A stretch of DNA of 45,797 nucleotides from a bacterium. Lineage in GTDB: Bacteria > Vulcanimicrobiota > Vulcanimicrobiia > Vulcanimicrobiales > Vulcanimicrobiaceae. The translations under genes and the position numbers were made by a program. The stretch's first letter is position 1. The number at the start of each line of letters is the position of its first letter. The notes beneath the pieces were generated by a model. The model did no database searches and had not been told where the DNA came from. It worked only from the letters and a program-made list of their open reading frames with translations. The stretch lies in NCBI GenBank assembly GCA_021778415.1, contig JAJYCL010000024.1, positions 1-45,797 on the forward strand, written 5' to 3'. Shown one piece after another: positions 23,430 to 27,443 of this stretch.

Positions 23430-24610
23430 TTACCGCTCGCGTGGCATCGCCAGATGCTCTTGATTTCCTGAATCTCGACGCGCTCTTCTCCGAAGAAGAG
23501 CGGCTTATTCGTGAAACCGTCCGGCGCTTCGTTCGAAGCCGCGTGCTTCCCGACATTGCGCAATGGTTTGAAGATGGGATTTTGCCGCGCGAGCTCGGTC
23601 GCGAACTTGGGGCTTTGGGTCTGCTTGGAATGCATCTCCATGGTTACGGATGCCCCGGTGCTAGTGCGACGGCCTACGGCATAGCTTGCCTCGAACTTGA
23701 AGCCGGCGATGCCGGCGTTCGCAGTTTTGCGTCGGTTCAAGGATCGCTTGCAATGTATGCTATTTACCGCTGGGGAAGTGAAGAGCAAAAGCAACGCTTT
23801 CTTCCCGGCATGGCGCAAGGAGAAACGATTGGGTGCTTCGGCTTAACGGAGCCTGATTTCGGCAGCAATCCGGCGGGAATGCGCACGCACGCGCGCCGAG
23901 ACGGCGATGACTTCATTCTTAACGGCACGAAAATGTGGATCACGAATGGATCGATTGCCGACGTTGCGATCGTTTGGGCGCAGACCGATTCCGGCATCGC
24001 GGGATTTCTCGTTGAGCGCGGCATGCCGGGCTTTACTGCGACCGATATTCACAAGAAAATTTCATTGCGCGCATCGATTACGAGCGAATTGCATTTTAAC
24101 GACGTTCGCTTACCAGCGAGCGCGCAGCTCCCCGGCGCGAACGGTTTGTCGGGGCCGCTCGCGTGTCTCACCGAGGCTCGCTTCGGCATCATTTGGGGGG
24201 CAATGGGGGCGGCGCGCGCATGCTTTGAATCCGCGCTTGACTATAGTAAAACCCGCGTCCAGTTCGGCAAGCCGATCGGTGGCTTTCAGCTCACACAAGA
24301 AAAGCTGGCGAATATGCTGCTCGAATTGCAGAAGGGCAGTTTGCTTGCCTTGCATCTCGGACGCATGAAAGACGAAAGTCGGCTCCATCCCGCGCATGTA
24401 AGTTTCGGCAAGCTCAACAACGTTCGCGAAGCCTTGGCGATTTGTCGCGAAGCTCGGACTATTTTAGGAGCCAACGGTGTCACGCTCGAATATCCGGTCA
24501 TTCGTCATATGAACAACCTCGAATCGGTTCTCACGTACGAGGGGACGAGCGAGGTTCATACGCTGGTATTGGGAGCAGCCTTAACGGGCATCGACGCCTT
24601 CACGGGCTGA
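23426..24610 (+). CDS. Acyl-CoA dehydrogenase, glutaryl-CoA dehydrogenase-like
   Basis: A 394-residue flavoprotein. It has the [17 protein letters not shown] and [22 protein letters not shown] segments of the FAD-binding domain. The end is [24 protein letters not shown], with catalytic Glu near residue 372. The YEGT.. H.L.LG.A.TGI pattern is that of glutaryl-CoA dehydrogenases, which oxidise and decarboxylate glutaryl-CoA to crotonyl-CoA. A different short acyl-CoA is possible. It is coupled to the aldo-keto reductase by an ATGA overlap. Its last 97 bp recur at 25112-25208. Confidence 0.9.
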
Positions 24611-24645
24611 ATGACGGGCGTGCTCGGCCCGCTTTTTGGCCGACG

Positions 24646-25093: not shown

Positions 25094-25111
25094 CCGGGAG
25101 TACAATTCCAC

Positions 25112-25208
25112 CAACCTCGAATCGGTTCTCACGTACGAGGGGATGAGCGAGGTTCATACGCTGGTATTGGGAGCAGCCTTAACGGGCATCGACGCCTCTA
25201 CGGGCTGA
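25112..25208 (+). pseudogene. Duplicated 3' end of the acyl-CoA dehydrogenase gene
   Basis: The 97 nt match 24514-24610 (the last codons and stop of the glutaryl-CoA-dehydrogenase-like gene) at 94 positions. The differences are one C-to-T change and a TC/CT swap near the end. It keeps the stop codon but has no start and no upstream part, so it is a gene fragment, not a gene. Confidence 0.93.
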
Positions 25209-25242
25209 ACGAAGGGCCGCCGTCACCCTCATATGATGTGAA

Positions 25243-25420
25243 GCCGGGGGCGTAGAACGCCCCCGGCACGGTGTCGGTACACTGGTTTCACCCTAGGGCC
25301 CTAGAGCCCGTTCCTCAGATCAGTGACCGCACCACGGCTGACGAGCAGATCGGACGGTATCGTGGGACTCGTTTTTAACGGTGATCCTGAATGTATGAGG
25401 TTGATCTTTAGGCTCGTCTA
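25243..25420 (+). ncRNA. Probable bridge RNA of the IS110 element
   Basis: The non-coding left end can fold into a perfect 11-bp 5' hairpin (25243-25253 with 25257-25267) and two stem-loops. Loop 1 has stem CGGT-CACTG with CAGTG-ACCG, 25275-25284 with 25321-25329. It holds TCACCCT (25288-25294), identical to the left target flank, and TCCTCAG (25312-25318), complementary to the right flank CTGAGGA. Loop 2 has stem GACGAGC-AGATC with GATCT-GCTCGTC, 25340-25351 with 25403-25418. It holds ACGGTATC (25354-25361), identical to the element's right end, and TATGAG (25394-25399), complementary to CTCATA at its left end. Size and order match the published IS621 bridge RNA. Boundaries are approximate. 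Confidence 0.82.
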
Positions 25421-25447
25421 TTTCGTTTCATAATGGGAGACGGTCCT

Positions 25448-26404
25448 GTGGATTTTCTCGGAATCGATATTTCTAAAGGTGATTTTCACGCGCATTTGTT
25501 GCAGGGCAATCGTTCTGCAAAAAAGGTCTTTCCCAACTCGCTGGTCGGCTATAAGCAGTTAGGGAAATGGCTCGACAATCGCAAGAGTAGCGAGTTGCAT
25601 GCGTGCATGGAGGCAACGGGTGCCTATTGGTTGGGAACCGCTATGTTTTTGCACTCGCATTACGGTATGGTAAGCGTTGTCAATCCCACGTGCATTAAGA
25701 TGTTTGCTCGCAGCAAGCTACGGCGTACGAAAACCGACAGCGTCGATGCAGAGATTATTGCAGAATATTGCATCACGCAAAATCCTCGGGTATGGGTACC
25801 ACCAGCCAAGGAAAGCCTCGAAATACGGGCACTTCTGACCTATCGCGATGAATTAGTTGCCGAAAAACTGCGTATTAAACAAATCAGCACTTCGGTGCAT
25901 GAGGCAGGCGTTTTCCAAGCTACGGCAACCCAGCATCGCGAAAAACTCGAAGAGTTTATCGAAAACGTCGAACAGCAATTGCGAGTGCTCATTCAAAGCA
26001 CGCCGGAGCTTTCAATCGCGGCAAAAAATTTGCAGACGATTCCCGGAATCGGATGGCTTACGGCGGCATCGTTGCTTGCTCGGCTTCCGATGGATCGCTT
26101 GGCAAATAGCAAAGCTGCCGCAGCCCATGCCGGCCTAGCGCCGCGCGAGCGGCAATCGGGCACCTCGGTTCACGGGCGTGCTCGAATCTGTAAAACCGGC
26201 GACGCACACCTGCGCAAAGCGCTCTACATGCCGGCCTTGGCGGTTCTGCGTGGCAGTTCGCCACTCGGCCAATTCGCAGCTCGGCTGAGCGCCGCCGGAA
26301 AAACTGGTAAGGTCGTCGTCGTTGCAGTTATGCGCAAACTCGTCACGATCGCCTACGCCATTCTCAAGAGCGGAAAACCCTATTCGGTTCCCGCCGTGTC
26401 TTGA
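25448..26404 (+). CDS. IS110-family recombinase (transposase)
   Basis: A 318-residue protein. The N-terminal RuvC-like DEDD domain shows Asp7 in LGIDISK, Glu55 in CMEATGAYW, and Asp97 and Asp100 in TKTDSVDA. A coiled linker follows, then the Transposase_20 domain beginning IPGIGWLTAASLLARL. The APRERQSG segment holds the serine expected to be the nucleophile in this family. All key residues are present, so it may be active. The GTG at 25448 is preferred because GGGAG lies 8 nt upstream. An in-frame ATG at 25433 would add five residues. It would work with the bridge RNA encoded just upstream. Confidence 0.93.
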   Translation: MDFLGIDISKGDFHAHLLQGNRSAKKVFPNSLVGYKQLGKWLDNRKSSELHACMEATGAYWLGTAMFLHSHYGMVSVVNPTCIKMFARSKLRRTKTDSVDAEIIAEYCITQNPRVWVPPAKESLEIRALLTYRDELVAEKLRIKQISTSVHEAGVFQATATQHREKLEEFIENVEQQLRVLIQSTPELSIAAKNLQTIPGIGWLTAASLLARLPMDRLANSKAAAAHAGLAPRERQSGTSVHGRARICKTGDAHLRKALYMPALAVLRGSSPLGQFAARLSAAGKTGKVVVVAVMRKLVTIAYAILKSGKPYSVPAVS

Positions 26405-26419
26405 CAACCAACACGGTAT

Positions 26420-26617
26420 CTGAGGAGCGCACGCAGTGCGCGTCTCGAAGGGCCCCCGTCACCCTGAGGAGCACGCGAAGCGTGCGTCGCCCCGTCATCC
26501 TGAGGAGCACGCGTAGCGTGCGTCTCGAAGGACGAGACGCGATGCTTCGCATCGCTCCTCAGCATGACAGTAAACGTCACCCTGAGGAGCGCACGACGTG
26601 CGCTCCTCGAAGGGCCA
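26420..26617. repeat. Cluster of REP-like palindromic units
   Basis: Five units follow the pattern GTCA(C/T)CCTGAGGAGC, a short palindromic hairpin of varying sequence, then (T)CTCGAAGG. The first (from 26420) is the right half of the unit split by the IS. Others begin near 26458, 26494 and 26576. One, 26534-26568, is in reverse orientation. Hairpin arms differ (for example GCACGC/GCGTGC against GCGCACG/CGTGCGC) while the flanks are kept. The units lie between the IS and the 3' end of the lipoprotein gene and contain no gene. Confidence 0.88.
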
Positions 26618-26640
26618 CCGGGCTGGTGGGTTTTTGCGCG

Positions 26641-27342
26641 TTAGTGACAGGCGACAGCGACGACTTGTTGGCCCAGGATATCGATCGTGTTGGGCGACGG
26701 TAGTGTTTGGGCGGGAAGCGATGCTGTGGTGCCAGTAATCGTTCCACCTGTGGCGACCGTTTTCCACGTCGGCGCGCCGCCGCCGCTAGAGTAGCTGTCA
26801 AGCTCGCAACTGGTTGCTGTGCCGAATCCCGCCGAGTTCGTGACCGTCATAACCGGAGTTGTGTTTCCTAAGCTGATCAGTGTCCCGCTATTATAAAGGG
26901 AAAAATAGATGACCGGCGTCGCAGCGGAGGCGTTGTCCGCTGGGAGTGTGTTCGGCGTAACGTCACCGGAATTCGTCGCGTCCGAGACGCTGATGGTGCC
27001 GCTTCCCACGGAGGCCGTGCCAAATTGGATGGTGGCGGAGATGTTTTGGTACGCTGATAGTGAGACGAGTCCGGGGACTTGCCCGTTGGTCGCCGTGAGG
27101 GTTGCCGTGGAGCCACCGAAGGTCCATGTAGCCGGAGCTGCTGTGGGCGCGGCAGTTGGGGCCGCTGTTGGAGCCCCAGTTGGGGCTGCTGTTGGAGCCC
27201 CAGTTGGGGCTGCTGTTGGGGCTGCTGTTGGGGCTGCTGTTGGCGCCGTCGCCCCGCCGCCACCACTCGAACCGCCGCAAGCAGCAAGTGCCGAGGCTAA
27301 AACGAGCGCTAGAGAGCTGGAAAATAGGGCTCGCGATTTCAT
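26641..27342 (-). CDS. Lipoprotein with (PTAA)n linker
   Basis: A 233-residue protein. The signal peptide ends in a lipobox (SALAAC, Cys22). Then come a Gly/Ser stretch, ten PTAA/PTGA repeats (residues 33-70) as a flexible stalk, and about 160 residues of beta-rich domain with many Thr, Ser and Gly. The ATG at 27342 has an AAGGA site at 8 nt. An earlier in-frame start is not needed. The C-terminal domain is unknown to me. The gene sits back to back with the rplC promoter, about 100 bp away, and is the last gene of the block that splits the S10 operon. Confidence 0.8.
   Translation of the reverse strand: MKSRALFSSSLALVLASALAACGGSSGGGGATAPTAAPTAAPTAAPTGAPTAAPTGAPTAAPTAAPTAAPATWTFGGSTATLTATNGQVPGLVSLSAYQNISATIQFGTASVGSGTISVSDATNSGDVTPNTLPADNASAATPVIYFSLYNSGTLISLGNTTPVMTVTNSAGFGTATSCELDSYSSGGGAPTWKTVATGGTITGTTASLPAQTLPSPNTIDILGQQVVAVACH
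27133..27246. repeat. 12-bp tandem repeats coding for PTAA/PTGA
   Basis: Near-perfect 12-base units, with a 24-base higher-order period where PTAA and PTGA alternate. The count can change by slippage without breaking the frame, which would lengthen or shorten the stalk of the lipoprotein. Confidence 0.88.
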
Positions 27343-27443
27343 GAACGTGGTCCTTTCCGACCGAAGTCGTCGAAAATTGTACCGATTCATCGAGTTTAGC
27401 GTGACCGTTGGAATTTTTAGAGAAAATCACGCGATTGGCACGC

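Follow-up and report, generated by a model that had tools for sequence, protein, structure and literature searches.

An IS110-group insertion sequence with a predicted bridge RNA and a REP-like target in a probable Eremiobacterota genome

In 2024, bridge RNAs were reported for IS621 of E. coli and across thousands of IS110 elements (PMC11208160, PMC11208158). The bridge RNA of IS621 is 177 nt long (PMC11208160); the catalytic serine of its recombinase is S241, and a handshake guide position was defined in the same system (PMC11208158). The seekRNA of IS1111/IS110 elements (PMC11187229) follows the same principle under another name. In IS110-type elements its non-coding region lies upstream of the gene, as at the present locus, whereas IS1111 elements carry the RNA downstream together with long subterminal inverted repeats. 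That IS110 elements can target REP sequences was already known in 2006 or before, and ISPpu9, ISPpu10, ISPa11 and ISRm19 of this family each have one fixed insertion point in REP (PMC1525189). These four share that habit with the element reported here, although they reside in other hosts and other REP families and were described before bridge RNAs. Among the papers searched, none mentions both IS110 and Eremiobacterota.

The window analyzed here is a stretch of 45,797 nucleotides from an uncultured bacterium, most likely a member of the Eremiobacterota. It almost certainly contains an intact IS110-group (IS621-type) insertion sequence with a bridge RNA, a clear new example of a known mechanism. 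The element, its recombinase gene and its flanks are as follows.

25228..26419, + strand: whole IS110-group element, 1,192 bp with the CT core counted once
25223..25229, + strand: left target half TCACCCT including the CT core (25228-25229), identical to the left target guide at 25288-25294
25228-25233, + strand: left end of the element, CTCATA, from the sequence
25433..26404, + strand: IS110 recombinase, 323 aa, assigned from domains, family score and catalytic residues
26413..26420, + strand: right end of the element, ACGGTATC, which is ACGGTAT plus the core C, from the sequence
26420..26426, + strand: right target half CTGAGGA including the core, whose reverse complement is the right target guide
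26420..26620, + strand: array of the host REP-like repeat that is the element's target, with TCACCCTGAGGA at 26459 and 26577

The left end measures 205 nt and the right end ∼15 nt, so that a long left end carrying a structured non-coding RNA is paired with a short right one. The initial annotation had called the left-end region free of ORFs, and indeed no ORF of at least 60 aa overlaps 25147-25432. Assignment to the IS1111 group was rejected on the position of the RNA in the left end, the right end of ∼15 nt and the absence from view of long subterminal inverted repeats. The layout is that of IS621: an RNA of ∼177 nt in the left end, running from a 5′ stem-loop to a target loop and then a donor loop, a CT core, a junction promoter, a DEDD and serine recombinase and a REP-like target. 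The two elements differ in phylum, in their recombinases (distant, with no near identity), in the target, which is TCACCCTGAGGA here and not the IS621 REP target, and in the guides. The right guide pairs over 7 nt, and the left guide matches over 7 contiguous nt versus 8-9 in IS621.

The recombinase contains a DEDD RuvC-like domain (PF01548) and a Transposase_20 domain (PF02371), both above the Pfam cut-offs, and scores 224.9 bits with the NCBIfam IS110 “RNA-guided transposase” model. Using phmmer against structure chains, the solved IS621 and ISCro4 recombinases were matched over nearly the whole length (E=2e-57 and 1e-55), and the fold was considered settled due to this sequence match. Residues D12, E60, D102, D105 and S242 do not vary when the protein is aligned with ten relatives; as read from the match to the solved recombinases, they are the counterparts of the IS621 DEDD motif and catalytic serine. 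Its nearest named relatives are encoded in MAGs labelled Candidatus Eremiobacterota (60%, 47% and 50% identity), which makes this phylum the most likely one for the host. Single-sequence scans of genome contigs and viral contigs returned no relatives; an alignment query did find them. A TIGR-Tas assignment was rejected, the Tas endonuclease model giving a partial match of 26.5 bits, below its curated cut-off of 100 bits.

A REP-like repeat has the predicted 12-bp target, TCACCCTGAGGA, at its head. This 12-bp sequence occurs 273 times in the 2.59-Mb genome versus ∼0.3 expected by base count, the reversed control occurs 0 times, and each of ten relatives holds 0-1 copies. When the two flanks of the element are joined they give CCGTCACCCTGAGGAGCGCACGCAGTGCGCGTCTCGAAGGGC, a REP-like unit, of which an identical copy over ∼39 bp is present elsewhere in the genome (L067). 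The repeat family is often found in local arrays, and in the array at 26420-26620 the repeats lie in both orientations, with heads TCACCCTGAGGA and TCATCCTGAGGA.

A putative promoter was recognized when the ends of the element were joined as they would be in a circle. Its two halves are at opposite ends of the integrated element:

26401..26406, + strand: −35 half TTGACA of the junction promoter, from the sequence; it overlaps the stop codon of the recombinase gene
25232..25237, + strand: −10 half TATGAT of the junction promoter, complete only in the circular form, from the sequence

The joined ends read TTGACA-ACCAACACGGTATCTCA-TATGAT, with 11 matches to the 12 consensus bases and 17 nt between the two hexamers. 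This spacing recurs in 24 of the 25 junctions compared, counting the present one, and the scan for a promoter-like site in the integrated form found none. Were transcription to start ∼6-7 nt downstream, the 5′ hairpin would come first in the RNA and the transcript would measure close to 177 nt. The initial annotation mentioned neither this promoter nor the handshake bases that follow the right guides, and did not recognize the target as a high-copy REP-like repeat specific to its host.

It is unlikely, with some weight left to the idea, that the guide system is real and this copy has lost its activity. The genome search found the element in one copy, its recombinase gene being the sole IS110-type gene of a genome with 273 exact target sites, which speaks for such a loss and gives no sign of recent mobility. 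Against loss of activity stand the ORF, both ends, all guides and both promoter halves, every one of which is intact, and the catalytic residues, which are kept.

The RNA region was mapped by folding and by comparing its loops with the flanks and ends of the element. Features of the region are:

25238..25418, + strand: bridge RNA as matched by covariance model R1, 176.8 bits (the window supplied one of the six model members)
about 25243-25420, + strand: predicted bridge RNA transcript of ∼177 nt
25243..25267, + strand: 5′ stem-loop of a perfect 11 bp (25243-25253 with 25257-25267), from the fold
25270..25333, + strand: target-binding stem-loop with the first internal loop, from the fold
25288..25294, + strand: left target guide TCACCCT, from the guide and flank comparison
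25312..25318, + strand: right target guide TCCTCAG, followed by AT (25319-25320), a putative handshake guide to the donor
25340..25418, + strand: donor-binding stem-loop with the second internal loop, from the fold
25354..25361, + strand: left donor guide ACGGTATC, the same as the right end of the element
25394..25399, + strand: right donor guide TATGAG, reverse complement of the left end CTCATA

The perfect hairpin and the two stem-loops were in the initial annotation and are borne out by folding, the region being 5.4 standard deviations more stable than dinucleotide shuffles (z −5.4). Each guide, flank and end string that had been read from the letters was found where it had been placed. The four guide strings occur once each in the RNA region, in the order left target, right target, left donor, right donor, and the base after the right donor guide is a G, a putative handshake guide to the target base C. 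All four strings occurred together in 0 of 20,000 dinucleotide-preserving shuffles, and two or more in 45 of 20,000; the product of the single-string frequencies is 5e-8, or 2e-9 with the order required. No Rfam family matched the region at gathering score. The sole weak match, to ncS037 on the minus strand (E 0.37), was taken as chance.

To derive a consensus fold, six Eremiobacterota left ends were aligned, that of the window included. Of the 50 pairs in the fold, 16 stay paired although at least one sequence differs at both positions. Covariance model R1 was built from the same six left ends. In most of ∼80 further IS110 loci, which come from many phyla, it finds a match immediately before the recombinase gene, for example with 60.1 bits in another Eremiobacterota genus outside the model set and with 47.8 bits in a Thiomicrorhabdus MAG; it misses some IS110 loci at E 0.05. 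Within the window there was no second match above 12.3 bits. Searched with filters off against an IS621 copy on an E. coli plasmid, R1 aligned over the full model to positions 410-592 of the locus (28.8 bits, E 1e-7). This match lies directly upstream of the recombinase, in the region that encodes the IS621 bridge RNA, and the target-then-donor order that had been claimed as that of IS621 agrees with the full-length alignment. By eye, the left ends of three Eremiobacterota elements (L034, L041 and L043) seem to lack a separate 5′ stem-loop and to begin at the target-binding stem.

For the covariation test, only donor guides were used to place the element ends, after which the target guides were set against the resulting flanks. 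Right guides agreed with the right flank of their own element at 4.18 of 6 non-core positions versus 1.90 when permuted (n=45, Z 13.0). The left-side test was also run on 25 elements with at least 5 of 6 donor-guide matches, because several distant left ends were mislocated automatically; left guides matched their own left flank at 5.04 of 7 positions versus 2.36 (n=25, Z 9.8). Neither observed value was reached in 20,000 permutations, and Eremiobacterota alone gave Z values of 6.2 and 6.5 (n=11 each). Note that these Z values overstate independence due to the shared ancestry of the sequences and should not be considered strict probabilities. The initial annotation had named beforehand two findings that would count against a bridge RNA, namely no conserved fold among related elements and guides that do not follow insertion sites. 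The fold and layout proved to be conserved in six relatives and in IS621, and the guides follow the insertion sites on both sides.

The covariation signal is carried by close relatives with different guides. Genome G008 holds several copies of one element (L014), whose right flanks start CTGAGCT in 8 of 8 cases and whose left flanks end GTCACGCT in 4 of 4; its guides are GTCACGC and AGCTCAG, compared with TCACCC and TCCTCAG in the window. The left target guide of that element has a C at the expected core T (TCACGCC versus the target TCACGCT), yet many copies are at the same target. Donor guides vary with the element ends as well (CGGTAT, CGGAAT, CCGTAT, CAGTAT). The base after the right donor guide, which occupies the handshake guide position of IS621, is complementary to the target base preceding the core in 21 of 25 elements (permutation p 0.002), and G-C, C-G and T-A versions of this handshake pair were all found. 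Element anatomy, guide-target match and guide-target covariation are demonstrated by these comparisons.

Such a structure, just upstream of the recombinase start codon, could instead regulate recombinase expression as a 5′ UTR fold or through small RNAs, without acting as a guide, and the report on ISPpu9 describes regulatory small RNAs (PMC8450116). Regulation would not call for loops whose bases change with the insertion site and ends of each element, or for a structure that aligns with the bridge RNA of IS621, and we consider it highly improbable as a replacement for guiding; a regulatory side role of the left-end structure beside guiding may exist. The chance that the guide matches are accidental, or a by-product of REP-like palindromes inside the left end, is negligible: REP-like repeats are dense beside the element, but the guides sit in internal loops outside the palindromes, relatives with other targets carry other guides, and this reading is refuted by the shuffle test and by guides that follow flanks in the G008 copies.

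For a guiding bridge RNA, we infer transcription, binding and catalysis from IS621. Excision as a circle would join the right end, the CT core and the left end, creating a sigma-70 promoter from which the left-end bridge RNA of ∼177 nt would be transcribed. The element's DEDD/Ser recombinase would presumably bind this RNA. In the first loop, the left guide would pair with the bottom strand of the target TCACC-CT-GAGGA and the right guide with its top strand; the second loop would pair with the joined element ends ACGGTAT-CT-CATA. Strand exchange by the recombinase at CT would then insert the element into the REP-like repeat.

The nearest relatives are Eremiobacterota elements (L069/L032, L003, L033, L014 and L070/L035), which have recombinases 44-59% identical, the same RNA fold and the same promoter spacing, and differ in target guides and insertion sites. 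The elements of G008 and G121 use GTCACGCT-GAGC(T) sites, unlike that of the window. The corresponding target, TCACGCTGAGCT, occurs 60 times in G008, 6 times in G121, twice in the window's genome and 0-1 times in the others, and the G008 relative, with correspondingly different guides, is inserted in its own host's repeat. From these copy numbers, each element is therefore aimed at a repeat abundant mainly in its own host. We tentatively propose, as a possibility less probable than not, that Eremiobacterota target guides are tuned to each host's private high-copy REP-like repeat and change as the repeats change. The basis is two element lineages and two repeat families, each of these abundant in its own host alone, and the same data fit guide change or a simple sorting of elements into hosts holding their target. 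If host-tuning were true, the element would be locked to a harmless, abundant and host-specific landing site, and guide loops would be a record of past repeat families.

Elements of this class are of interest as programmable recombinases. From a phylum with hardly any cultured members, the present locus contributes an intact IS110 recombinase together with a bridge RNA, and its target, donor and guides can all be read. Its Eremiobacterota relatives make up a natural retargeting series in which similar RNA scaffolds carry different guides for different host repeats.

Two further observations concern the surroundings. Between the REP array and ribosomal protein genes, an ORF on the minus strand (26641-27390) has a lipoprotein-like start and many PTAA/PTGA repeats. 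On the other side, the last ∼100 bp of an acyl-CoA dehydrogenase gene (24508-24611) are near-exactly duplicated ∼600 bp downstream, at ∼25108-25212, with ∼3 differences by eye; the duplicate adjoins the left side of the REP unit that bears the element.
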